Source of the DNA: Rhizobium sp. Leaf262
GTDB lineage: Bacteria; Pseudomonadota; Alphaproteobacteria; Rhizobiales; Rhizobiaceae
Length of the DNA stretch: 64,000 nucleotides
Assembly: GCF_001422245.1 (NCBI RefSeq)
Contig: NZ_LMMM01000001.1
Coordinates: 1,422 to 65,421, forward strand
Reading direction: 5' to 3'
Positions 31,878 through 45,081 of the stretch are shown piece after piece. Position 1 is the first letter of the stretch, and each line of letters opens with the position of its first letter. The position numbers were made by a program, and so were the translations under genes. The notes below the pieces were generated by a model. It ran no database searches and was not told where the DNA came from. It saw only the letters and a list, made by a program, of their open reading frames with translations.

Positions 31878-32387
31878 GTGAAAACGCGACAGCCCCTCAT
31901 CCTCGCGGCGAAGATTCCAGACCGTGATCTCGAGCCCTTCGATGTCCTGCGGAAAGCTCATTTTCCACCTGACAGAAATGTCCTGCGTGCGCATCTGACG
32001 ATGTTTCATCGCTTGCCGGGGGAATATGTTACGCGAATCATTGATCGTCTGGCTGAGGTTGCGGCGCTGCAAAAGCCGTTTCAAGCGCAAGTTACCGGTC
32101 TTCGTCATCTTGGCGGCGGTGTCGCCTTCACAATCGCGAGCCCTCAGCTTCACGCCATCCACGCTCAGCTCAGATCGGACTTTGCGTCATGGCTAGGCGG
32201 GCAGGACATGCAGAAATGGCAGCCTCACATCACCGTTCAAAACAAAGTCTCGAAACCCGTGGCCGACGAGTTGCATGGACGGCTTGTAGCCGACTTCAGG
32301 CCACACAGTATAGAAACAGCCGGTCTTGACCTGTGGCGCTATATGGATGGGCCGTGGGAACACGAGGCATCGTTCGAATTCGACTGA
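31878..32387 (+). CDS. 2'-5' RNA ligase family protein (2H phosphoesterase)
   Basis: 169 residues from a GTG with AAGGAG six bases upstream; open codons upstream look non-coding. The two HxT motifs that define 2H phosphoesterases are present: HLTMFH (about 39-44) and HITVQN (about 112-117), spaced as usual. Members act on 2',5' or cyclic phosphate ends of RNA or nucleotides; the physiological substrate is unknown. Confidence 0.85.
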   Translation: MKTRQPLILAAKIPDRDLEPFDVLRKAHFPPDRNVLRAHLTMFHRLPGEYVTRIIDRLAEVAALQKPFQAQVTGLRHLGGGVAFTIASPQLHAIHAQLRSDFASWLGGQDMQKWQPHITVQNKVSKPVADELHGRLVADFRPHSIETAGLDLWRYMDGPWEHEASFEFD

Positions 32388-32605
32388 CTGTCGAGGTTTT
32401 CGAGAGGTTTTGCCGGAATGGGCGTCTTGCTGAGCGATTTCGAGACGCTTTTTCGTTCTGCCAGCGCGTTTAAATGCCTTGAACTCACGCTTTGAAATAT
32501 TTGGTCACTTAAAATGACTTCCTATTTCTCCCCCATGCGGGCATGTGATTATCAAAGCTCTGCGGAGCACTCACACGACAACCGATGTAGCAAAGAGCTG
32601 ACACC

Positions 32606-33967
32606 ATGGAAAATCCGCTTGCACTGACGCAGCGTTCCGAAAACAGCATTTTTCGCGAAGGCGATGTTTTCGTTCTATTCGGCGAATTGTTTGGCCGCGG
32701 TTATGCGACGGGCCTGCTCGAAGAAGCGCGCGCTGCTGGCATGGACATCGTCGGAATAACAGTGGGTCGGCGTGACGAGAACAATGTTCTGCGTCCGCTG
32801 AATGCCGAAGAATTGTCGGATGCCGAAGCACGGCTGGGCGGCAAGATCATCAACGTGCCGCTGATGGCCGGTTTCGATCTCGATGCCCCCGCCGGTAGCC
32901 CTACGCCGACCGATCTCGTCGCGAAAATGACGCTGGACAGCTGGCAGACCGACACGCTGGACTGGGCCTATATCGACCAGTGCCGTGATCTGGGCACGGA
33001 ACGGTTCACTGCCGCGCTTTCGGACGTGATGTCCATTCTGGACGGCATGATTCCCGCAGGACGCAACGTTCTGTTTGCGCATACCATGGCTGGCGGCATC
33101 CCCAAGGCCAAAGTGTTTCTCGCCATCGCCAACCGCATCTACAAGGGACGCGGTGCGCGCCACATGTCGTCGCAGACGCTGCTCGACAGCGATATGGGCA
33201 AGCTCATCCTGCAGAATTTCGATGAGGTTTCGGCAAACACGTTCCGTCATCTCATCGAGCAGAGTGCTGCAATCCGCAACCGCGTGGAAGCTGCCGGAAA
33301 TGAGGTTCGCTATACCGCCTATGGTTACCATGGAACGGCGATCCTGATTGACGGCGAGTACCGCTGGCAGACCTATACGAATTACACGCAGGGCTATGCC
33401 AAGATGCGCCTGGAAAAGATTGCCACCGAAGCCTGGGCTGAGGGCGTGAAGGCGACCGTCTACAACTGCCCGGAAATCCGCACCAACTCTTCTGATGTTT
33501 TCACCGGTATCGAGCTTCCTCTCATTCCTCTGCTCCTCGCTTTGAAGAAAGAGAATGGTGGCGCTTGGGTGGAGCAGCAGTGGCAGGCATGCGAGAAGCT
33601 GCTGGCAGACGGCTTTACCATGGATGACGTGCTGCGGAAGATCAAGGATATGCAGGCCAGCGACGTCATGCGTCCGTTCTATGACTTCACGGCTTGGCCG
33701 ATGCCCAACAGCCAGGATCAGGCCGATCTGACCATCGGCACGTCGAATGAAATCACCCAGATGCACCGTGACAACAAGTCTATGATCAGCGATCTGCTGA
33801 GCAGCTTGGTCGTGGAAGCAACCGGGCAGCTGATTTTCGGCAATTCGTCCAAACCGGCTGGTCCCGTTCAGTGGCTCAACCACGATATCGTCGCCCGTCA
33901 GTTGAACGCGAAGCGTGGCCACGCATCGGTCGGCACCTCCGCTGCCTCGACTGCCGTCTTGGCTTGA
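32606..33967 (+). CDS. FabMG-like protein (putative enoyl-ACP reductase family)
   Basis: 453 residues. The N-terminus VFVLFGELFGRGYATGLLEEA resembles a Rossmann-type nucleotide-binding start, and the rest (FAHTMAGGIPKAKVFLAIANRIYKGRG, YTAYGYHGTAILI, TVYNCPEIRTNSSDVFTG) matches, as I recall, the large uncharacterised family that databases name FabMG after an enoyl-ACP reductase found in a metagenomic screen. If right, it would be a second, triclosan-tolerant enoyl reductase. It is a single-gene unit ending in a strong terminator. The family name rests on memory, not on a search. Confidence 0.6.
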   Translation: MENPLALTQRSENSIFREGDVFVLFGELFGRGYATGLLEEARAAGMDIVGITVGRRDENNVLRPLNAEELSDAEARLGGKIINVPLMAGFDLDAPAGSPTPTDLVAKMTLDSWQTDTLDWAYIDQCRDLGTERFTAALSDVMSILDGMIPAGRNVLFAHTMAGGIPKAKVFLAIANRIYKGRGARHMSSQTLLDSDMGKLILQNFDEVSANTFRHLIEQSAAIRNRVEAAGNEVRYTAYGYHGTAILIDGEYRWQTYTNYTQGYAKMRLEKIATEAWAEGVKATVYNCPEIRTNSSDVFTGIELPLIPLLLALKKENGGAWVEQQWQACEKLLADGFTMDDVLRKIKDMQASDVMRPFYDFTAWPMPNSQDQADLTIGTSNEITQMHRDNKSMISDLLSSLVVEATGQLIFGNSSKPAGPVQWLNHDIVARQLNAKRGHASVGTSAASTAVLA

Positions 33968-33977
33968 TACGACATCA

Positions 33978-34010
33978 AAGGCGGCGGCCAAAGCGCCAGC
34001 CGCCTTCTTT
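33978..34010 (+). terminator. Terminator of the FabMG-like gene
   Basis: AAGGCGGC (33978-33985) pairs with GCCGCCTT (33999-34006); the loop holds a further GGC/GCC pairing. Followed by CTTTTC. Lies 11 bases after the stop and also between convergent genes. Confidence 0.75.
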
Positions 34011-34046
34011 TCGCACATACGCCAATCAACCTTTCCCCCAAATCGT

Positions 34047-34946
34047 CTAATTCATCTCCGCCATGAAGACGGGTGCCTGCTGCTCGAAAAATTTCGAGAA
34101 GGACGCGATACGTGGCGGCAAGGCCTGATATGGCGGGTAATACAGCGTCAGCCACAGCTCTGGCGGTGCCCAACCCTTTAAGACATGCACCAGCCGACCG
34201 CTGCGCAGATGCTCACCGACGTGAAAGCGCGGCAGCATGGCGACGCCCGCACCTGCCGCGGCCATACTGGCCAGCACCTCGCCGCTATTGGCGCTGAAGG
34301 CACGGCCTGCCGAGACAGTGGCGCTTGCGCCGCCATCCGACAGCACCCAATGCTCACGCCTGCTCTCCCCGCTATAGGCAAGACAATCATCAGGCGTCAG
34401 TTCGTTTGGATGTTTCAAATCGACGAACCGGCTGCCAGGCGCAGCAACCAGAATGCGCGGGACGACACTGATCTTGCGCCAGATCGTGAACTTGTCCGAC
34501 GGCGCTGCCGAGATGCGGATCGCCAGATCGTAATCCTCATCGACGATGTTCACCATGCCGTCGGTGAGCGAAATTTCAAAGCTGATCTTCGGGAATTGCG
34601 CGTTGAAGGCTGAGAGGATGGCCGTCAACACCTGCTGACCGAACCATGTCGGTGCACTGATTCGCAAGCGACCCTGATCGGCCTTGTGATTGTTCAGCAG
34701 GTCCTTGCGGGCATTTTCCAGCGCATCGAAAGCGGGCTTGATCTGCGCCGCGTAGATCGCGCCATCGGTGGTCAGCGAAACCTGCCGTGTCGTTCGGACG
34801 AACAGTTGCACGCCAAGCTCATCCTCCAGCGCAGCGATGGCTCTCGTTACGGCCGCTGGCGTCATGTCCAGTTCTCGCGCCACCTGCGCGAAATTCCGCT
34901 TCTCGGCTGCGAGAAGAAATGTGCGAAGCGCCTTGTAGTCATTCAT
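34047..34946 (-). CDS. LysR-family regulator of the isochorismatase cluster
   Basis: 299 residues. Winged helix-turn-helix at 1-60 (FLLAAEKRNFAQVARELDMTPAAVTRAIAALEDELGVQLFVRTT) and a periplasmic-binding-like effector domain from about 90. It is divergent from the isochorismatase gene at 35173, the usual LysR layout, and TGCAATT-type elements lie right in front of its ribosome site. The same elements recur before two other transcription units of the cluster, so it probably controls all of them. Confidence 0.9.
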   Translation of the reverse strand: MNDYKALRTFLLAAEKRNFAQVARELDMTPAAVTRAIAALEDELGVQLFVRTTRQVSLTTDGAIYAAQIKPAFDALENARKDLLNNHKADQGRLRISAPTWFGQQVLTAILSAFNAQFPKISFEISLTDGMVNIVDEDYDLAIRISAAPSDKFTIWRKISVVPRILVAAPGSRFVDLKHPNELTPDDCLAYSGESRREHWVLSDGGASATVSAGRAFSANSGEVLASMAAAGAGVAMLPRFHVGEHLRSGRLVHVLKGWAPPELWLTLYYPPYQALPPRIASFSKFFEQQAPVFMAEMN

Positions 34947-34962
34947 CGATTATTTCACCTGC

Positions 34963-34992
34963 TGCAATTCAATAACAATAATTATTGCAATT
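34963..34992. promoter_or_regulatory. Putative LysR operator region
   Basis: TGCAATTC (34963-34970), the 12-bp palindrome CAATAATTATTG (34976-34987) and ATTATTGCAATT (34981-34992) overlap within 30 bp of the divergent promoter. ATTATTGCAAT recurs exactly at 40399-40409 before the haloperoxidase-like gene. Confidence 0.5.
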
Positions 34993-35172
34993 CTCCGCAC
35001 AGAGCAAGCCACCTAGATTGCAATCACACCGGCCGGAACGGATGCGGGACAGCAACAGGATTTGTCCCGAACCGCTTCAAGGTCACTTTCAAACAATGGG
35101 GCGGCATAACGTTCAAGACGTGCCGCTCCCCCTGCGCCATTCAATGCAACCAACACTTCGAAAGGAAATTCC

Positions 35173-35862
35173 ATGTCCAAGCTTCAGGTTCTCACACCAC
35201 AGAACAGCCAGATGATCTTCATCGACCAGCAGCCGCAAATGGCGTTCGGCGTTCAGTCGATCGACCGGCAGGTGCTCAAGAACAATGTTGTCGGACTTGC
35301 CAAGGCGGCGAAGATTTTCAACATCCCCACCACCATTACCACGGTGGAGACCGAAAGCTTTTCCGGCAACACCTTTCCCGAGCTTTTGGGCGTGTTTCCT
35401 GAAAACGACATTCTCGAGCGGACTTCGATGAACTCGTGGGACGACCAGAATGTACGCGATGCGCTGGCCAGGAACGCCAAGGGCGGCCGCAACAAGATCG
35501 TCGTTTCCGGCCTGTGGACGGAAGTTTGCAACACGACCTTTGCACTGTCTGCCATGCACGATGTTCCCGACTATGAGATTTACATGGTGGCCGATGCATC
35601 CGGCGGCACATCGTCTGACGCGCACAAATACGCCATGGACCGCATGGTGCAGGCAGGCGTCATCCCGGTCACCTGGCAGCAGGTGTTGCTGGAGTGGCAG
35701 CGTGATTGGGCTCGCAAGGAAACCTACGATGCGGTGACCTCGCTCGCCAAGGAATATTCCGGCGCGTACGGCATGGGCATCGACTACGCCGTGACCCACG
35801 TCCACGGCGGTGCCGAGCGTGTCAAGCACGGCAAGCGCATCGGACCGAACCCGGCACGCTAA
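35173..35862 (+). CDS. Isochorismatase-family hydrolase
   Basis: 229 residues. Cysteine hydrolase fold: Asp18 (MIFIDQQPQ), and the nucleophile Cys in VSGLWTEVCNTTFAL (about 114-128); the Lys position lies near ERTSMNSWDD. Such enzymes hydrolyse amides such as nicotinamide or ureides; the short C-terminal extension is typical of the YcaC-like group. AAGGA six bases upstream of the ATG. First gene of the LysR cluster. Confidence 0.85.
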   Translation: MSKLQVLTPQNSQMIFIDQQPQMAFGVQSIDRQVLKNNVVGLAKAAKIFNIPTTITTVETESFSGNTFPELLGVFPENDILERTSMNSWDDQNVRDALARNAKGGRNKIVVSGLWTEVCNTTFALSAMHDVPDYEIYMVADASGGTSSDAHKYAMDRMVQAGVIPVTWQQVLLEWQRDWARKETYDAVTSLAKEYSGAYGMGIDYAVTHVHGGAERVKHGKRIGPNPAR

Positions 35863-35931
35863 GTTTCCTCAAGGTGCCGTTTCGAAGAACACCCTTTGAA
35901 ACGGCCCTCCTTCCAATCGAGGACTTAATCC

Positions 35932-36219
35932 ATGAAAGTCTATCTTCTGTCTCTTGGCGCCGGACTTCTTGTCAGTCTGGTCTACAGCCTGCTCAACGTC
36001 CGCTCTCCGGCACCGCCGGTCATCGCGCTGGTCGGGCTGCTCGGCATTCTCGTGGGCGAACAGATCATTCCTTTCGCCAGGACGCTATTGGCCCGGGAGC
36101 CCGCTGCAATTTCCTGGATCCACCAGATAAAGCCTCACATGTTCGGTCATCTGCCGAAGGGTACGGTCGGTGAAAGAGACGTGGCATCGCATGGGAAAAC
36201 ACCTGCGGAGCACAGCTGA
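35932..36219 (+). CDS. XapX domain membrane protein (DUF1427)
   Basis: 95 residues, two hydrophobic segments (about 3-20 and 29-50) with LLSLGAGLLVSLVYSLLNVRSPAPPVIAL-type XapX sequence (positions 4-32). Family function unknown; members are usually encoded between an isochorismatase-like gene and an amidohydrolase, exactly as here. Its stop overlaps the next start by one base (TGATG). Confidence 0.85.
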   Translation: MKVYLLSLGAGLLVSLVYSLLNVRSPAPPVIALVGLLGILVGEQIIPFARTLLAREPAAISWIHQIKPHMFGHLPKGTVGERDVASHGKTPAEHS

Positions 36220-38201
36220 TGACCACACGTCGCACCTTTCTGGGCGGGGCGTCCAGTCTTGCCCTTGCCAATCTCTTCTCTTCCGCCGACGCCGCCAATC
36301 ATTCCACGACCGGAGCAGAAACCATGCATGCCGACCTCATATTACATCGCGGTCTGATCACCACTCTGGACAGATCGAGACCGACGGCTAGCGCCGTCGC
36401 CATCAAGGACGGAAAATTTCTGGCTGTGGGCGAGGATGCCGAAATCATGGCTCACGCCGGGCCTGATACGAAGATCGTCGATTTGAAAGGCAAACGTGCC
36501 CTTCCCGGGTTGATCGACAACCACACCCACGTCATTCGTGGTGGCCTGAACTTCAACATGGAGCTTCGCTGGGATGGCGTGCGCTCGCTGGCCGACGCGA
36601 TGGACATGTTGAAACGGCAGGTGGCCATCACCCCCGCGCCGCAATGGGTGCGCGTCGTCGGTGGATTTACCGAACATCAGTTTGCCGAAAAGCGCCTGCC
36701 GACCATCGAGGAAATCAACGCGATTGCCCCCGATACGCCGGTGTTTCTTTTGCACCTCTACGATCGGGCACTGTTGAACGGAGCCGCCTTGCGCGCAGTG
36801 GGATATACGCGCGAAACACCAAATCCGCCCGGCGGTGAAATAACGCGCGATGCCAACGGCAATCCAACCGGCCTGCTGCTGGCCAAGCCGAATGCGGGCA
36901 TCCTTTATTCCACCTTGGCAAAAGGTCCAAAACTTCCACTCGACTATCAGGTGAATTCCACGCGCCACTTCATGCGGGAACTGAACAGGCTGGGCGTCAC
37001 GGGCGTTATCGACGCGGGCGGTGGATACCAGAACTATCCCGACGATTACGAAGTGATTCAGAAACTGGCGGACGAGGACCACATGACGGTTCGCCTGGCC
37101 TATAATCTGTTCACGCAAAAGCCCAAGGAAGAAAAGCAGGATTTCCTCAACTGGACGAAATCCGTCAAATACAAGCAGGGCAACGATTATTTCCGCCACA
37201 ACGGCGCTGGCGAAATGCTGGTATTTTCAGCCGCCGATTTCGAGGATTTTCGTGAGCCACGCCCCGAACTGGCGCCGGAAATGGAAGGCGAACTGGAAGA
37301 GGTGGTTCGCATTCTCGCGGAGAACAGATGGCCCTGGCGTCTTCATGCGACCTATGATGAAACGATCTCGCGGTCACTGGATGTATTCGAAAAGGTCAAC
37401 AAGGATATTCCGCTTGAAGGTCTCAACTGGTTTTTCGACCATGCCGAAACTATCTCCGACCGATCGATCGATCGCATCGCCGCTCTTGGCGGTGGCATAG
37501 CAACCCAGCATCGCATGGCCTATCAGGGCGAATATTTCGTCGAGCGTTACGGGCATGGCGTTGCCGAGGCGACGCCGCCGATCAAAAAGATGCTCGAGAA
37601 GGGTGTCAATGTTTCCGCAGGCACGGATGCCACCCGTGTGGCCTCTTACAATCCGTGGGTCTCCTTGTCCTGGATGGTGACGGGAAAGACCGTGGGTGGG
37701 ATGCAGCTTTATCCGCGTGCCAATTGCCTGGACCGCGAAACGGCCTTGCGTATGTGGACGGAGAAAGTCACTTGGTTCTCCAATGAGGAAGGCAAGAAGG
37801 GTCGCATAGAAAAGGGCCAGTTTGCCGATCTGATCGTCCCCGACAAGGACTTCTTTGCCTGCGCAGAAGATGAAATCTCGTTCCTCACCTCAGACCTCAC
37901 CATCGTTGGCGGCAGGATCGTCTATGCTTCGGGAGACTTCAAAGCTCTGGACGAGAGTGCCTTGCCGCCCGCCATGCCGGACTGGTCGCCCGTGCGCACA
38001 TTTGGTGGCTACGCCGCTTGGGGCGAACCAGCCGGTGCTGGTCAGCGCTCTTTGCGCCGCACGGCGATTTCCACATGCGGCTGCGCCGGCGACTGTGGCG
38101 TCCACGGTCACGATCACGCCGGCGCATGGACGTCGAAACTGCCCATTGCAGATCTCAAAGGTTTCTTCGGCGCCCTGGGTTGCTCGTGCTGGGCGGTTTG
38201 A
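36219..38201 (+). CDS. Tat-exported amidohydrolase (YtcJ-like) with Cys/His-rich tail
   Basis: 660 residues, metal-dependent amidohydrolase family 3. The first metal motif HTH is in LIDNHTHVIRGG. A Tat-type leader (MTTRRTFLGGASSLALANLF) precedes the canonical family start MHADLILHRGLI, which has its own ATG at 36324 (residue 36) with GGAG eight bases upstream; both starts look usable. The C-terminal tail is unusual: CGCAGDC (620-626), HGHDH (629-633) and CSC (655-657), a likely extra metal site. Substrate unknown. Coupled to xapX. Confidence 0.82.
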   Translation: MTTRRTFLGGASSLALANLFSSADAANHSTTGAETMHADLILHRGLITTLDRSRPTASAVAIKDGKFLAVGEDAEIMAHAGPDTKIVDLKGKRALPGLIDNHTHVIRGGLNFNMELRWDGVRSLADAMDMLKRQVAITPAPQWVRVVGGFTEHQFAEKRLPTIEEINAIAPDTPVFLLHLYDRALLNGAALRAVGYTRETPNPPGGEITRDANGNPTGLLLAKPNAGILYSTLAKGPKLPLDYQVNSTRHFMRELNRLGVTGVIDAGGGYQNYPDDYEVIQKLADEDHMTVRLAYNLFTQKPKEEKQDFLNWTKSVKYKQGNDYFRHNGAGEMLVFSAADFEDFREPRPELAPEMEGELEEVVRILAENRWPWRLHATYDETISRSLDVFEKVNKDIPLEGLNWFFDHAETISDRSIDRIAALGGGIATQHRMAYQGEYFVERYGHGVAEATPPIKKMLEKGVNVSAGTDATRVASYNPWVSLSWMVTGKTVGGMQLYPRANCLDRETALRMWTEKVTWFSNEEGKKGRIEKGQFADLIVPDKDFFACAEDEISFLTSDLTIVGGRIVYASGDFKALDESALPPAMPDWSPVRTFGGYAAWGEPAGAGQRSLRRTAISTCGCAGDCGVHGHDHAGAWTSKLPIADLKGFFGALGCSCWAV

Positions 38202-38250
38202 ACTTCAGGCGGGCGGATGGACAGTCTCTGCCCGCCAGCCACGTCGATAA

Positions 38251-38292
38251 TTGCGATTTTCGCAACTAAATAGAAACAATTGATGCAATTGT
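38251..38292. promoter_or_regulatory. Operator region upstream of the DoxX gene
   Basis: Holds the inverted repeat TTGCGA-TTT-TCGCAA (38251-38265) and gaaacaattgatgcaattgt (38273-38292). The second element recurs base for base at 40425-40444. It contains CAATTG-ATG-CAATTG, so it reads as a symmetrical site. Confidence 0.55.
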
Positions 38293-38349
38293 TGGTCACA
38301 TCAATCACGGCCAATATCGCTCCAACGCAAACACTTTCAGGAGCAGATC

Positions 38350-38793
38350 ATGACAGACCACAGCACCACACAAAATGCGCCGAAAACCACCCTTTCCAAT
38401 CTTCTGAGGTCGCCTGTATCGCAAAGGTTGGCACTTCTGGCTCTTTGCGCAGCCTATATTCAGGGGCCAGTGACCAAGATCTTCGATTTTCATGGGGCCA
38501 TTGCCGAAATGAACCATTTCGGCCTTTCTCCGGCACCGGTCTTCGCAATCGCGGTCATCGTCTTTGAACTGGTGGCTTCGGCCATGGTCATTTCCGGCTT
38601 TCTACGCTGGGCGGCGGCTTTGTCACTTGTCGGCTTCACACTTCTGGCGACGCTGGTTGCACTGCGGTTCTGGGAACTGCCCTCCGGCATGGACCGCATG
38701 ATGGCGACCAACGCATTTTTTGAACACCTGGGTCTGGCAGGCGCCTTCATCATCGTGGCCGCGATGGATCTTGCAAAGGGAGCCGGCAAATGA
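38350..38793 (+). CDS. DoxX-family membrane protein
   Basis: 147 residues with four hydrophobic segments (about 27-42, 60-82, 88-105 and 123-140) in the DoxX pattern. DoxX proteins associate with quinone, thiosulfate or oxidative-stress functions; precise role unknown. AGGAG before the ATG. The MFS gene start overlaps its stop by four bases. Confidence 0.8.
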   Translation: MTDHSTTQNAPKTTLSNLLRSPVSQRLALLALCAAYIQGPVTKIFDFHGAIAEMNHFGLSPAPVFAIAVIVFELVASAMVISGFLRWAAALSLVGFTLLATLVALRFWELPSGMDRMMATNAFFEHLGLAGAFIIVAAMDLAKGAGK

Positions 38794-40388
38794 CCGCGAT
38801 AAAATCTCCGGTCAGCAGCTTCGCACCGCTTGCCCAGCCCGTCTTTGCCGTTTTGTGGGCGGCCACCGTCCTGGGCAATACCGGCAGCTTCATGCGCGAT
38901 GTCGCCAGTTCCTGGCTTATGACGGACCTTTCCGCATCCCCGGCAGCGGTGGCGATGGTGCAAGCGGCAGGCACATTACCGGTCTTTTTGCTGGCAATCC
39001 CCGCCGGCGTGCTGACCGATATTCTCGACCGCCGAAAATTTCTGATCGCCGTGCAACTCCTCCTCGCCTCCGTCAGCCTGACCCTGATGGCGCTTGCTCA
39101 TACAGGCATGCTTTCGGTCAGTTCGCTGATCGCGCTGACCTTCGTGGGTGGCATCGGAGCCGCCTTGATGGGACCGACCTGGCAGGCAATCGTGCCCGAA
39201 CTGGTGAAGCGGGAGGATGTCAAAAGCGCTGTCGCTTTGAACTCGCTGGGCATCAATATCGCCCGCTCCATCGGACCGGCAGCCGGTGGTCTGTTGCTGG
39301 CGGCATTCGGTGCCGCCGTCACCTATGGCGCCGATGTGGCAAGCTACCTGTTCGTGATCGTCGCCCTGTTATGGTGGCCACGGGCAAAGGACGGCAATGA
39401 TGCATTGGCCGAAGGTTTCTTCGGCGCATTTCGTGCCGGGCTGCGTTACACGCGGGCCAGTCGTCCGCTGCATGTCGTGCTGGTACGTGCGGCTATATTC
39501 TTTGCCTTTGCCAGCGCCGTATGGGCCTTGCTGCCTCTGGTCGCCCGGCAATTGCTGGGCGGAGATGCGGGCTTTTATGGTATCTTGCTTGGCGCGGTCG
39601 GGGCCGGCGCAATCGGCGGCGCATTGGTGATGCCACGCCTTCGCGAGCGTTTGGACGCTGATGGCTTGTTGCTGGCAGCAGCACTCGTGACCGCGATGGT
39701 TATGGCGACCCTGTCGATTGCTCCACCCAGATGGCTCGCCATCGTCGCACTTCTCTTTCTAGGCGCTGCCTGGATTACGGCGCTGACGACACTCAACGGG
39801 GCGGCGCAGGCCATTCTCCCCAACTGGGTACGCGGTCGCGGCCTTGCCGTCTATCTCACCGTCTTCAACGGAGCCATGACGGCCGGTAGCCTGGGCTGGG
39901 GTGCCGTAGGTGAGGCCGCAGGCGTGCCCGGCACGCTTTTGATCGGCGCGGCCGGATTGCTCGTTGCCGGTCTGGTCATGCACCGCCTGAAGCTGCCTGC
40001 TGGCGACATGGACATGGTGCCGTCCAACCACTGGCCGGAACCGCTGGTCGCCGAACCTGTTGCCCATGATCGCGGCCCTGTCCTGATCCTCATCGAATAC
40101 ACGATCGAGAAACATCACCGCACCGCTTTCCTGCATGCCATCGATGCCCTTTCTCATGAGCGTCGTCGAGATGGTGCCTATGGCTGGGGTGTGACTGAGG
40201 ACTCTGCCGATCCACAAAAGATCGTCGAATGGTTCATGGTGGAATCCTGGGCAGAGCATTTGCGCCAGCACAAGCGCGTCTCCAATGCCGATGCGGATTT
40301 GCAAGGCAAGGTTCTGGCGTATCACGTTGGCTCCGAAAAGCCTGTGGTCCGACATTTCTTGACGATCAACCGTCCTGGAACACTGTGA
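38790..40388 (+). CDS. MFS transporter with C-terminal ABM-like domain
   Basis: 532 residues. The first ~405 residues form a 12-helix MFS exporter of the EntS/DUF894 (MFS_3) type, with the GVLTDILDRRKFLIAVQLL motif A region after helix 2. The last ~110 residues are soluble and look like an antibiotic-biosynthesis-monooxygenase-type alpha/beta barrel (LILIEYTIEKHHRTAFLHAI, FMVESWAEHLRQH). Probably exports a small toxic or siderophore-like compound. ATGA overlap with doxX. Confidence 0.85.
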   Translation: MTAIKSPVSSFAPLAQPVFAVLWAATVLGNTGSFMRDVASSWLMTDLSASPAAVAMVQAAGTLPVFLLAIPAGVLTDILDRRKFLIAVQLLLASVSLTLMALAHTGMLSVSSLIALTFVGGIGAALMGPTWQAIVPELVKREDVKSAVALNSLGINIARSIGPAAGGLLLAAFGAAVTYGADVASYLFVIVALLWWPRAKDGNDALAEGFFGAFRAGLRYTRASRPLHVVLVRAAIFFAFASAVWALLPLVARQLLGGDAGFYGILLGAVGAGAIGGALVMPRLRERLDADGLLLAAALVTAMVMATLSIAPPRWLAIVALLFLGAAWITALTTLNGAAQAILPNWVRGRGLAVYLTVFNGAMTAGSLGWGAVGEAAGVPGTLLIGAAGLLVAGLVMHRLKLPAGDMDMVPSNHWPEPLVAEPVAHDRGPVLILIEYTIEKHHRTAFLHAIDALSHERRRDGAYGWGVTEDSADPQKIVEWFMVESWAEHLRQHKRVSNADADLQGKVLAYHVGSEKPVVRHFLTINRPGTL

Positions 40389-40399
40389 ACGGCCCATGA

Positions 40400-40444
40400 T
40401 TATTGCAATAAAGACAATTATATCGAAACAATTGATGCAATTGT
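40400..40444. promoter_or_regulatory. Operator region upstream of the haloperoxidase-like gene
   Basis: Contains the perfect 12-bp palindrome TTATTGCAATAA (40400-40411) and, 13 bases on, gaaacaattgatgcaattgt (40425-40444), identical to 38273-38292. Lies about 90-130 bp before the gene start. Confidence 0.6.
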
Positions 40445-40532
40445 CGATCTCGCCAAACCACTGCAATGTGCCTTCATCAGACAAACGCAGCATCGGCAAA
40501 AAAAACTAGCACGAATATCGAAGGAACCTAAT

Positions 40533-41510
40533 ATGCCCGAGACCCTTCTGACCATGACCCGACGCGGTGCGCTGCTTTCCGCAGCCGCTGCAACCATCAC
40601 CATCGCAGTTCCCGGCAGGGCGGCACGCGCTGCCACAGCTTCCAAATCAACCACCAGCACAGGAGATCATACAATGGGCTACACCACCACCAAGGACGGC
40701 GTCGAAATCTTCTTCAAAGATTGGGGTCCAAAGGATGCCCAGCCCATCGTGTTCCACCACGGCTGGCCATTGTCATCAGACGATTGGGATGCGCAGATGC
40801 TGTTCTTCCTCTCGAAGGGCTACCGCGTCGTGGCCCATGATCGCCGCGGCCATGGTCGTTCCGCGCAGGTTTCGGACGGCCACGATATGGACCACTATGC
40901 CGCAGATGCCTTTGCCGTCGTAGAGCATCTCGATCTGAAGAATGCCGTTCATATCGGCCATTCAACAGGCGGTGGCGAAGTCGCCCGTTACGTGGCCAAG
41001 CATGGCGAACCTGCTGGTCGCGTCGCAAAGGCCGTGCTCGTCTCTGCCGTGCCGCCACTGATGCTGAAGACGGCAGCCAATCCTGAAGGCCTGCCCATGG
41101 AGGTTTTCGATGGTTTCCGCTCTGCCCTTGCCGCCAACCGCGCGCAATTCTTCCGCGATGTTCCCTCCGGTCCCTTCTATGGCTTCAACCGCGACGGCGC
41201 GACTGTGCATGAAGGCGTCATCCAGAATTGGTGGCGTCAGGGCATGATGGGCGGCGCCAAGGCTCACTATGATGGTATCAAGGCATTTTCCGAAACCGAC
41301 CAGACGGAAGATCTCAAGGCCATCGGCGTGCCGACACTGGTTCTCCACGGCGAAGACGACCAGATCGTGCCGATCGCAGACGCTGCACACAAGGCCATCA
41401 AGCTTTTGAAGAACGGCACCATCAAGACCTATCCCGGCTTCTCCCACGGCATGCTTACTGTGAATGCCGACGTGTTGAATGCCGATCTTCTGGCCTTCAT
41501 CAAGGACTGA
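40533..41510 (+). CDS. Alpha/beta hydrolase, non-heme haloperoxidase-like, with Tat leader
   Basis: 325 residues. Catalytic Ser in GHSTGGGEV, Asp in HGEDDQIVP and His in [18 protein letters not shown] and [10 protein letters not shown] are typical of cofactor-free haloperoxidase/esterases. The first 47 residues are a Tat-type leader ([16 protein letters not shown]). At residue 48 the canonical start [18 protein letters not shown] has its own ATG (40674) with AGGAG eight bases upstream, so exported and cytosolic forms may both be made. Upstream start also has AAGGA. Last gene of the LysR cluster; ends in a hairpin. Confidence 0.88.
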
Positions 41511-41529
41511 GGTCTTTTTCTTTCGATAC

Positions 41530-41564
41530 AGACTATCCGCCCATGACGAATGGGCGGATAGTCT
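41530..41564. terminator. Hairpin between convergent genes
   Basis: GACTATCCGCCCA / TGGGCGGATAGTC, a perfect 13-bp stem with a 7-base loop, 20 bases after the haloperoxidase-like stop. The following T run is weak, but the position between convergent genes suits a two-way terminator. Confidence 0.65.
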
Positions 41565-41585
41565 ATTCGGCCCATGCCTCTTGTA

Positions 41586-42488
41586 TCAGTGCCTGTTGCG
41601 CAAACGCCATTGCTGGGGTGTCATGCCAACGACGGCCTTGAACTCCATTTCGAAACGATGTTCATCCATGAAACCGCACGCTGCGGCGACGTCGGCAACA
41701 TTGTCGCCACCTTTGCCGAGATAGGATTTCGCCCGTTCGATCCTGCTCTGCAGCAACCAGGTTTCAATCGTCTGGCCTGTCGTTGCCTCAAAGGCCGGGC
41801 AAAGCACCGCTACATCGAAACCGGTGGCAGCGGCAATATCCGTCAATGTGATGCTGCGCGACAGGTTGGCGGTCATGTACATTTTGACGCGACGCTCCTG
41901 CATCGCTGTCAGCCGCCCGGATTCGGCGAGATGCTGACGCGGCGACTGGCCGTAACGGTGAGCAAGATGAGCGAGAAGGGCAAGACCAATGTGCGGAAGC
42001 AGCGTATCGCGAACCTCATCTGGCATTGCGAACATCGGCATGAGCGCAGCACCGATGTTGCGCACGACAGGGTCATCCACCCCGCGGCAAATGCTGAAAT
42101 TCTCGATATCCGGTTCGCCTGCCTGTGCGGTCAACTCTAGGAAATGCGCAGTCGGGATATGAACGGCGAGTGCCTCAAAACGACCGCGGATCGATATCGC
42201 AGCCCCTTCCCTGAGGCTGACAAGACAGATGGAGCCACGGGGATACCTCTTAACAGGCGTCAATCGCTGATCGGCCAATATGTCGGCATGTTCGACATCG
42301 ACGAGATAGAGCATAAGCAGAAAAGCATCATCCCGCTCCAACTCCACACGATGATCCTTTTCACAGGCGAGTTCGAACTCCAAAACCGTAAGCCTGGCTT
42401 TGCTGAGCGGTCTGATGACGAGTTCGTTGGCGACCTTCACCCCGAACCCCTTCAAAATTCTGTCGCTGACTGCCAACAATTCACTCAC
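41586..42488 (-). CDS. AraC-family regulator
   Basis: 300 residues: an AraC-binding-like N-terminal domain and two helix-turn-helix motifs at the C-terminus (LTDIAAATGFDVAVLCPAFEATTG, then VADVAAACGFMDEHRFEMEFKAVVGMTPQQW). Convergent with the haloperoxidase-like gene and divergent from another AraC-type gene. Target and effector unknown; the LysR cluster is one candidate. Confidence 0.88.
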   Translation of the reverse strand: MSELLAVSDRILKGFGVKVANELVIRPLSKARLTVLEFELACEKDHRVELERDDAFLLMLYLVDVEHADILADQRLTPVKRYPRGSICLVSLREGAAISIRGRFEALAVHIPTAHFLELTAQAGEPDIENFSICRGVDDPVVRNIGAALMPMFAMPDEVRDTLLPHIGLALLAHLAHRYGQSPRQHLAESGRLTAMQERRVKMYMTANLSRSITLTDIAAATGFDVAVLCPAFEATTGQTIETWLLQSRIERAKSYLGKGGDNVADVAAACGFMDEHRFEMEFKAVVGMTPQQWRLRNRH

Positions 42489-42682
42489 AATCTATCGATA
42501 TTCCCCAACTGAGATCGAAGGTCTAGAGTGACGATCTCAGTGTACGGGCAGTTCTATCCGAGGATCGGTCGCCAATCTTGTAGAAAAGCGTCATTGCCCT
42601 GAAGTTTTGTTTTTAAGTCGTGATACGCATCATCAGGCGTTCGACAGGCGACGTCTGACATTTTTTAACCGAAAGATTCCTC

Positions 42683-43594
42683 ATGGCCCCTGCATCCGAC
42701 CATCAAGCCCGAACCGCTGGCAGCAGGACAGTGGATGGCTTCGGCTGTGCGCTGAAGCAACTGTCGGTCAATCAAAGCCTTGCATCGTCGAGTTTCGATA
42801 TCTACCGCAAGGCAACGCAGTCCAGCCTGCTGGATCAGGTCCAGACACCGGCAAGCGATCAGGGCTTCGTGATCGGAGTTGCCCTTCAAGGTGGCCATAC
42901 ACGGCGCATCTTTCGTCCGCATCACGCCTCAAGCCACGATTTCACGGAAAATGCGATCTATATTCGCGATCTCGCGCAGGACTACAAAGCCGACCTTTCC
43001 ACCCCTTTCGACTTCATGATGTTTCAGCTGTCGCCCGCATCGCTGGCAACAATCGCCGACGACTGCGACATGCCCGGCGTACGGATGCTATCCACGGAAA
43101 CAGCGACGAAAGACATCGTGCTTGCCAATCTGGCGCGTGCGCTGATACCGGCACTGGCAAGACCCGCAGAGGCGAATGCGCTTTTCGTCGATCAGATGAC
43201 GACGGCGATCGGCACCTATCTGATTCAGCGTTATGGCGGTCTGGCCGTCCCTTCCGCCAACAGGCCGGCAGGCCTGTCTCGTGCGCAGGAGGAAATGGCA
43301 AAAGACATCTTGCTGGAAAGACTTGACGGTGAGGTTCTGATTTCAGAGGTGGCGCAGGCCTGCAACCTGTCACGCGGTTACTTCATCCGCGCCTTCAAAG
43401 AAGCGACGGGCATGACGCCCTATCAGTGGCTTCTGAGCAAACGCATCGACAGAGCCAAGGAATTGCTGCGCTCCTCCAAGGCTTCGCTGGCAGAAATCGC
43501 GATTTCTTGTGGTTTTGCGGATCAGAGTCATTTTACCCGGGTCTTCTCCACCGCCGTCGGTGCCGCACCTGGTCTGTGGCGACGAAACGCTTGA
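42683..43594 (+). CDS. AraC-family regulator
   Basis: 303 residues with the same layout: N-terminal sensor (about 1-190) and C-terminal AraC DNA-binding domain (LISEVAQACNLSRGYFIRAFKEATGMTPYQW; SLAEIAISCGFADQSHFTRVF). It is divergent from the AraC gene at 41586 (194-bp shared promoter region), and the sensor parts are of similar length but not obviously alike. No catabolic target gene adjoins it on its own strand. Confidence 0.88.
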   Translation: MAPASDHQARTAGSRTVDGFGCALKQLSVNQSLASSSFDIYRKATQSSLLDQVQTPASDQGFVIGVALQGGHTRRIFRPHHASSHDFTENAIYIRDLAQDYKADLSTPFDFMMFQLSPASLATIADDCDMPGVRMLSTETATKDIVLANLARALIPALARPAEANALFVDQMTTAIGTYLIQRYGGLAVPSANRPAGLSRAQEEMAKDILLERLDGEVLISEVAQACNLSRGYFIRAFKEATGMTPYQWLLSKRIDRAKELLRSSKASLAEIAISCGFADQSHFTRVFSTAVGAAPGLWRRNA

Positions 43595-43653
43595 TCGTTC
43601 GGGTTCCGATCTTTTCCATTTCTCACAGGAACGACTGATTCTGCGCCCTTGCG

Positions 43654-45081
43654 TTGCGCCAGTTACCTTACGTCAAAATTTCTTGTTGCTGGCGTCGCTC
43701 AATTGAGAACGTTCTGATAAGCTCGCTGAAATCAGCTCAGCAGCGAGTTCCATTGTTTAAAAAAAATCCAGCCGGTCCTCATTACAGGACACAGAGACAA
43801 CATAGTCAACATTTGCAATTCGTCTGTCGCACTGCGCTACCCGTTGGCGTGTTTGTCAGCGGATTGTGGCTCGTTGTTTTTGCATTGATGCAGAACTGGC
43901 CGCTTGTCGTGACCGAAGGGCTTCTGTTTGCCGTCATATCGGGAGGATGGCTTGCCGCGCGAAGGGGTTACATTTCATTTGGCATGCTCGTCTCGCAGAT
44001 CGCTTGCGTCCTCTTTCTCGTCAGTTTCTCCCTCCTGTTCGATGTCCCCAACGAAGCCGTCCCACGCGTATCGCACATTTACCTTCTCATCATTGCGCTT
44101 GCCGGTTTCGCCAACTATCAACTTGATCCGACCCGCTTCCAGCTCGCTATCATCCTCACCTCGATTGCTTTTTTCATCCTGTTTTCCGTTTGTCCGCTGA
44201 GTTACGATTTTGCGACGCCGCTTTCCGACGATATCAGGAGCGTTACGGCCTGGATCCATGCGACAATGGCCGCTGCCTTGCTTTGCGGTGGCCTTTTGCT
44301 GATCCAGCGCAAGTTGGGGCCGGACAGTAAAAACGCCCGAGACCTGAGGACGGCCCTGGCTAGGGAACAGTTCGAACTTTTCTTTCAGCCGCAGGTCGAC
44401 GGCGGCGGTCGATTGATCGGCGCCGAAGCGTTGCTTCGCTGGCGGCATCCACGGCTGGGCTACATTGCTCCGGATGAGTTCATACCCGTGGCGGAACGTG
44501 CCGGGCTGATGCCTCAGCTGGGCGGTTGGGTACTGGAACGCGGCATCGAGACATTGTGCGCCTGGCGCGATCATCCGGAAACCAAGGATCTGGTCCTGTC
44601 GATCAATGTCAGTCCCGATCAGCTGTTTCAGGACAATTTTGTCGGCAACGTCATATCGGCCCTGTCGGCGGCATCGGTCGAACCACACGCGCTCAAGCTG
44701 GAATTGACGGAAACGATGTTTGTCGCCGAAGTGGAGGAACTGATCAGCAAGATCAAGGCCCTGGAAAAGCATGGCATCGGTATTTCGCTCGATGATTTCG
44801 GAACCGGCTATTCCTCATTGAGCTATTTGCAGAGACTGCCATTGGAGCAGTTGAAGATCGACCGCAGCTTCGTGCGTGCCGTGGCCACCGAACGTGGTGC
44901 AAGACTGGCGCGCAACATATGCCAGATGGGTCACGATCTCGGCCTCCACATACTGGCGGAAGGCATCGAAACGGAGGAGCAATACCGCTTCATGCTGGAT
45001 TGCGGGTGCAGCACGTTTCAGGGCTTTTATTTCGGACGACCCGTGGCACTGGATGTTTTCAGGCAACGTTTCTTCGGCTGA
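43654..45081 (+). CDS. Membrane-anchored EAL-domain c-di-GMP phosphodiesterase
   Basis: Up to 475 residues. N-terminal third has about six hydrophobic helices; the EAL domain covers about 228-475. Catalytic set present: EALLRW, NVSPDQL, ELTET, LDDFGTGYSS, QLKIDRSF and AEGIETEEQ, so it should hydrolyse c-di-GMP. No GGDEF domain. The start is uncertain: the listed TTG has no good ribosome site, and in-frame TTG (43753 region) or later starts before the first helix are possible. Confidence 0.85.
   Translation: MRQLPYVKISCCWRRSIENVLISSLKSAQQRVPLFKKNPAGPHYRTQRQHSQHLQFVCRTALPVGVFVSGLWLVVFALMQNWPLVVTEGLLFAVISGGWLAARRGYISFGMLVSQIACVLFLVSFSLLFDVPNEAVPRVSHIYLLIIALAGFANYQLDPTRFQLAIILTSIAFFILFSVCPLSYDFATPLSDDIRSVTAWIHATMAAALLCGGLLLIQRKLGPDSKNARDLRTALAREQFELFFQPQVDGGGRLIGAEALLRWRHPRLGYIAPDEFIPVAERAGLMPQLGGWVLERGIETLCAWRDHPETKDLVLSINVSPDQLFQDNFVGNVISALSAASVEPHALKLELTETMFVAEVEELISKIKALEKHGIGISLDDFGTGYSSLSYLQRLPLEQLKIDRSFVRAVATERGARLARNICQMGHDLGLHILAEGIETEEQYRFMLDCGCSTFQGFYFGRPVALDVFRQRFFG

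Follow-up and report, generated by a model that had tools for sequence, protein, structure and literature searches.

Gene cluster and shared element

We analysed a stretch of 64,000 nucleotides from Rhizobium sp. Leaf262 (contig NZ_LMMM01000001.1, positions 1,422 to 65,421; hereafter the window), in which genes for a LysR-type regulator, an isochorismatase-family hydrolase, an XapX protein, an amidohydrolase, a DoxX-family membrane protein, an MFS transporter and a haloperoxidase-type hydrolase lie together. An initial annotation, which named the LysR, isochorismatase, DoxX, MFS and haloperoxidase-type genes correctly, had noticed recurring words in three intergenic regions of this cluster and ascribed them to one regulator, presumably the LysR protein. 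One of these words, the 20-mer GAAACAATTGATGCAATTGT, is indeed present in identical copies in front of the doxX-MFS unit and the haloperoxidase-like gene; no third copy exists in the window at up to three mismatches, and 0.02 were expected from shuffles. A second word, ATTATTGCAAT, does occur at both 34981 and 40399, but the two copies had wrongly been taken as equivalent. The copy at 40399 forms the left (promoter-distal) arm of one element (C in Table 1), the copy at 34981 the right (promoter-proximal) arm of another (A), so that the pairing is out of register and we reject it; taken alone, the three matches to this word at up to one mismatch, against 0.92 expected in the window, are weak evidence. 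The third word, TGCAATT, lies before the LysR gene as claimed, at 34963 and 34986, but with 12 occurrences in the window against 12.1 expected it is at chance level and was discarded as evidence.

The left arms ATTATTTC at 34949 and ATAATTGC at 38247 had been overlooked. After registering the three regions against those of relatives, each contains one 49-bp composite element with the consensus ATWATTKC-N7-RCAAY-N18-GCAATT, and the 20-mer is its promoter-proximal half. The repeats are real and look functional. We refer to the elements as operators A, B and C and to their promoter-distal and promoter-proximal halves as the recognition and activation halves, after the roles proposed below. The recognition half of operator A reads ATTATTTC-N7-GCAAT (34949-34968) and its activation half ends with GCAATT (34987-34992); the left end of this operator is only 2 bp from the lysR start codon. 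Operators B and C have the recognition halves ATAATTGC-N7-GCAAC (38247-38266) and ATTATTGC-N7-ACAAT (40399-40418), and in both the activation half is GAAAC-N7-GCAATTG, which in B overlaps the −35. An alternative parse of its two halves is ATTGC-N7-GCAAT and GAAAC-N7-GCAAT at a distance of 23 bp. An RNA element was considered and rejected, there being no Rfam match in 32000-43700.

Table 1. Coordinates of the candidate operators, putative promoters and genes of the cluster (window numbering)
Feature	Position	Strand	Remarks
LysR-type regulator gene	34047..34946	-	presumed binder; divergent from the predicted isochorismatase operon
Composite operator A (candidate)	34949..34997	+	points toward isochorismatase; 33.4 bits; 0 mismatches to degenerate pattern
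Putative −10 TAGATT, isochorismatase operon	35014..35019	+	17 bp past −35 slot TTCTCC (34991-34996)
Isochorismatase-family (YcaC-like) hydrolase	35173..35862	+	first gene of predicted operon 1; PF00857; PDB 1yac, E 3.6e-25
XapX/DUF1427 protein	35932..36219	+	PF07235, TIGR03510; stop overlaps amidohydrolase start
Amidohydrolase	36219..38201	+	last gene of predicted operon 1; N-terminal RR motif; PF07969, E 4.3e-131
Composite operator B (candidate)	38247..38295	+	77.7 bits; 0 mismatches to degenerate pattern
20-mer copy 1	38273..38292	+	activation half of operator B
Putative −10 CAATAT, doxX operon	38312..38317	+	17 bp past TTGTTG (38289-38294); column conserved in 49 doxX promoters
DoxX-family membrane protein	38350..38793	+	first gene of predicted operon 2; PF07681
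MFS transporter	38790..40388	+	overlaps doxX stop; PF05977, E 2.6e-241
Composite operator C (candidate)	40399..40447	+	64.3 bits; 1 mismatch to degenerate pattern
20-mer copy 2	40425..40444	+	activation half of operator C
Putative −10 CAATGT, haloperoxidase gene	40464..40469	+	17 bp past TTGTCG (40441-40446)
Haloperoxidase/arylesterase-type alpha/beta hydrolase	40533..41510	+	RR-containing leader; PDB 1a88 (chloroperoxidase L), E 2.9e-133

Specificity in the window and the genome

A weight matrix was built from 77 distinct upstream sequences of other genomes (44 of doxX and 33 of haloperoxidase genes), chosen for a GCAATTG at a distance of 60-115 bp to the gene; this criterion kept doxX and haloperoxidase sites lacking GCAATTG out of the training, and site A, the lysR-side sites and the isochorismatase sites were held out of it. 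Applied to the window, this matrix finds exactly the three operators, the next best position scoring −13.0 bits. In about 0.46 Mb of first-order Markov sequence, scored on both strands (about 0.92 million positions), nothing exceeded 0 bits. In the loci of other genomes (L008-L116) 250 positions scored above 0 bits and 244 above the 8 bits used as threshold, a value chosen after the scores had been seen. A degenerate pattern, written with the window sites in view, matched only A, B and C in the entire 5.05-Mb genome at up to three mismatches, and its reversed control matched nothing in the same 5.05 Mb.

Conservation in relatives

From 170 LysR loci of relatives we kept the best 80 (L037-L116), in which the LysR orthologues are 78-85% identical to the window protein and, in most long loci, the other cluster genes lie near lysR in varying order. 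The laboratory symbiont Rhizobium johnstonii 3841 (L052) is among the carriers of the cluster. Word counts upstream of the relatives' lysR, doxX and haloperoxidase genes recover the same words independently of the window sequence, and the aligned upstream sequences display the whole element. The initial annotation had suggested looking for the motif in homologous clusters, and it is there: an element lies beside lysR, pointing outward, in 80/80 loci. Elements were counted within 350 bp upstream of each gene in these 80 loci alone, the loci of the own genome (L001-L007) having been dropped beforehand, together with genes whose match started after residue 40, whose identity was below 45% or that had less than 300 bp of upstream sequence. 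By this count an element faces doxX in 49/57 cases, the haloperoxidase gene in 39/51 and the isochorismatase gene in 34/71. It travels with the gene, for 17 of 19 haloperoxidase genes lying beyond lysR carry it. Internal genes rarely have one (XapX 0/67, amidohydrolase 0/65, MFS 1/56), a weak control since the sequence upstream of these genes is mostly coding.

This conservation contradicts the view that the identical 20-mer recurs by chance, through recent duplication or as a small, functionless mobile repeat. The identity of the two copies across all 20 bp invites such a reading, to which we give next to no credence given the shuffling expectation, the restriction to three sites in the genome and the lack of an Rfam match. 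Gene conversion between B and C as a general habit was likewise rejected: in the 24 loci having both, doxX and haloperoxidase operators are no more alike within a locus (0.707) than between loci (0.704; permutation p 0.33), and we see no sign of copying.

A fairer control than the internal genes is provided by two genes for AraC-type regulators (41586-42488 and 42683-43594), which lie next to the cluster here, as they do in many relatives, and might by that position be thought to encode the binder. No element faces either of them (0/25 and 0/26), and 43 of 67 full-length loci have no AraC homologue of at least 45% identity within the locus, which was the extent of the search; 35 of those 43 keep the element at doxX or haloperoxidase. 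An AraC-type binder is therefore very improbable.

The element also holds further out in the family, being found on the lysR side in 19/19 orthologue loci of other family genomes (71-85% LysR identity). A class-wide LysR search at E 1e-55 returned the own genome alone among 337, which confined deeper footprinting to the family. Below 60% LysR identity there were 32 matches, and we examined the ten best loci (L027-L036). Related AT-rich words lie there between lysR and an MhqO-like gene, and three of the ten pass 8 bits.

Promoter geometry and proposed mechanism

Over spacings of 10-24 bp the mean −10 score peaks, in every target class, at 17 bp past the −35 slot, with which the operator overlaps. 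In 49 doxX promoters the information per column is 1.47 bits in the operator and 1.78 in the −10; the spacer has 0.57, the region after the −10 0.90 and the upstream flank 0.08. With transcription assumed to start 7 bp past the −10, the T-N11-A dyad is centred at about −66 and the proximal half at about −40. All three window sites have a T-N11-A with dyad symmetry, and its T and A are kept in 80/80 lysR-side, 39/39 haloperoxidase, 47/49 doxX and 29/29 isochorismatase sites, as well as in 15/23 sites of other, unassigned genes.

According to the part of the source available to us, LysR-type operators span 50-60 bp, with a T-N11-A recognition site near −65 and an activation site at −35/−10 (PMC8407307). 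By position relative to the putative −10 the present element has this layout: a T-N11-A near −65, a second site over the −35, a length of about 50 bp, and a regulator gene that is adjacent and divergent. The regulator is a LysR-type protein by its domains, both above cut-off (N-terminal helix-turn-helix PF00126, 71.9 bits; substrate-binding PF03466, 119.8 bits).

We propose that the promoter-distal half (ATTKC-N7-RCAAY), about 66 bp before the presumed start, would serve as the recognition site, and the promoter-proximal half containing the 20-mer, over the −35 box, as the activation site. A LysR tetramer would occupy the two halves together; a small inducer would shift its grip and so lead to recruitment of RNA polymerase. 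Three predicted operons would be activated in this way, namely isochorismatase-xapX-amidohydrolase, doxX-MFS and haloperoxidase. With operator A ending 2 bp short of the lysR start codon, lysR itself should be repressed by the protein bound there.

That position, and the coverage of the targets' −35 slots, would also suit a LysR protein that owns the operator and acts mainly as a repressor lifted by its ligand. We regard this as unlikely, though it deserves consideration, because the −35 hexamers (TTCTCC, TTGTTG and TTGTCG) are imperfect and a T-N11-A near −66 with a second site at −35 is the geometry of activated LysR-type promoters in the part of PMC8407307 available to us.

Co-occurrence of the element and LysR

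In a sample of 297 family genomes, taking LysR proteins of at least 71% identity as orthologues and allowing two mismatches to the degenerate pattern, we found an orthologue in 20 genomes (own included) and the pattern in 20; 17 have both and 274 neither. The pattern is thus present in 17/20 genomes with the orthologue and 3/277 without it, with a Fisher p of 6.6e-22 that overstates independence because the genomes are related.

A different LysR-type protein encoded in the genome, such as a NodD-like one, might instead be the binder. The nod box is a 47-bp element with an ATC-N9-GAT palindromic motif, as described in the part of PMC5596368 available to us, and so resembles the present element in being a LysR-type operator of similar length in rhizobia. 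One ATC-N9-GAT occurs in 16/49 doxX and 6/39 haloperoxidase operators, and the pattern is found without a close LysR in three genomes. However, most copies lack the motif (it is present in 0/80 lysR-side, 0/29 isochorismatase and one of the three window operators, and never twice in one operator), and the cluster genes are not nodulation genes. On these grounds we reject the nod box. The element moreover adjoins the cluster's own lysR in all 80 relatives' loci, which makes a different LysR-type binder improbable, although no search was aimed at the NodD proteins of the genome.

Several observations weigh against control of the whole cluster by its own LysR protein. Operator A scores far below B and C (33.4 against 77.7 and 64.3 bits). 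No facing element was found within 350 bp of 8/57 doxX, 12/51 haloperoxidase and 37/71 isochorismatase genes, and the matrix training had drawn on doxX and haloperoxidase upstreams, so that the counts for these two are not independent of it. One AraC gene of 25 does have an element, facing away from it. Three genomes (G094, G229 and G294) have an orthologue and no pattern at two mismatches; here the matrix still scores 37.8, 22.8 and 19.0 bits beside lysR. Three others (G190, G236 and G263) have the pattern before a haloperoxidase gene and no close intact orthologue, which speaks against strict dependence; G236 has a 93-aa open frame, 68% alike to LysR, beyond its haloperoxidase gene. Presumably, isochorismatase genes that lack an element of their own are transcribed under the operator of a gene further upstream. 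The operator-preceded haloperoxidase genes L120, L129 and L131 belong to genomes without a close intact LysR orthologue, and are possibly remnants of a lost regulon or under the control of another LysR.

Taken together, these comparisons make it highly likely that the three intergenic regions carry one composite LysR-type operator, and that its most likely owner is the LysR protein of the cluster. Since the shared 49-bp switch adjoins the same LysR gene in dozens of relatives, the entire cluster is very probably under the control of one regulator. The proposal of the initial annotation is thereby supported, by conservation beside lysR and by co-occurrence, with its parse of the motif corrected. 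The cluster adds a new and well-defined case to the standard LysR-type regulons. In our searches of the open-access literature we found no description of a cluster or LysR of such make-up, nor the core word ATTGCAAT tied to a LysR; the one paper containing both terms deals, to go by its title, with delta-proteobacteria.

Genes of the cluster

The isochorismatase-family hydrolase scores under the YcaC equivalog cut-off. The amidohydrolase begins MTTRRTFLGG, an RR motif that suggests Tat export, so two cluster enzymes may act outside the cytoplasm. Two starts are possible for the haloperoxidase gene: ATG 40533 yields an RR-containing leader, and an internal ATG at 40674 (MGYTTTKDG), preceded by GGAG, yields the short form as annotated in Agrobacterium vitis. 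Its relatives differ in this respect, with a leader in L146 and an open frame from the internal site in L139 and L131. In some relatives (L048 and L056) the AraC genes lie between the isochorismatase gene and lysR.

A divergent dioxygenase and the possible signal

Across L008-L116 we counted 99 lysR-side operators. Eighty-seven are directed at a gene encoding an MhqO-like ring-cleaving dioxygenase, eight at an isochorismatase gene as in the window, and four at other open frames whose reality is uncertain. The best solved relative of the dioxygenase is MhqO (PDB 3oaj, E 5e-78), and it also matches 2,6-dichloro-p-hydroquinone 1,2-dioxygenase (E 1.7e-41). An MhqO-like gene is likewise divergent from lysR in all ten of the more distant loci examined. 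Less frequent bearers of the element in relatives are genes for DUF1275 (five loci), RidA-like (three), weakly glyoxalase-like (two) and ChaC-like (one) proteins. The own genome encodes a 68% relative of the dioxygenase outside the cluster (contig C18, L148), with no operator in the surrounding 3.9 kb.

The cluster also has a counterpart in a plasmid of A. vitis, typed as conjugative, which carries it collinearly with no dioxygenase adjoining lysR. There are exactly three operators on it, at lysR/hydrolase (23.9 bits), doxX (82.8 bits) and the alpha/beta hydrolase (64.8 bits), the next position scoring −19.7 bits. A stretch that covers at least 80% of the 7.5-kb cluster is present in each of 105 plasmid records.

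A DoxX-type protein belongs to the MhqR regulon of Bacillus. This regulon, which responds to quinone stress in Bacillus and Staphylococcus, resembles the present one in the MhqO-like dioxygenase that is divergent in most relatives and in the alpha/beta hydrolase among the targets. It differs in its regulator: the conserved adjacent regulator here is LysR-type, whereas MhqR, in the part of the source available to us, is a MarR-type repressor whose 9-9 bp repeat lies at the start site and whose regulons include ring-cleaving dioxygenases against quinones (PMC6798810). The window cluster, moreover, has no MhqO-like gene, and the Staphylococcus aureus MhqR repeat, as given in that part, has no match in the window at up to four mismatches and three at five, none in the cluster. 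In an Agrobacterium, mhqO genes have been reported, one of them 17-fold up on lignin (PMC12673573). Together with the MhqO-like divergent targets, these reports make a quinone or phenol signal plausible, by analogy, as the inducer of LysR.

Tentatively, LysR and its operator might define a regulon of Rhizobiaceae, not described before, that detoxifies quinones or hydroquinones, e.g. plant phenolics, and would be the LysR-controlled equivalent of the MhqR regulon of Firmicutes with its MarR-type repressor; we consider this possible rather than probable. Genes for the ring-cleaving dioxygenase, DoxX, the haloperoxidase-type hydrolase, ChaC-like and RidA-like proteins and transporters would then be gained and lost under a fixed operator grammar.

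The kind of control described here is clear but ordinary for bacteria. The analysis gives a precise operator and target list for a regulator of many plant-associated Rhizobiaceae, with similar clusters on plasmids, in which target genes have been shuffled round a conserved regulator while the same operator was kept. The operator offers a way to predict the genes under LysR control in each species and to seek the inducer.

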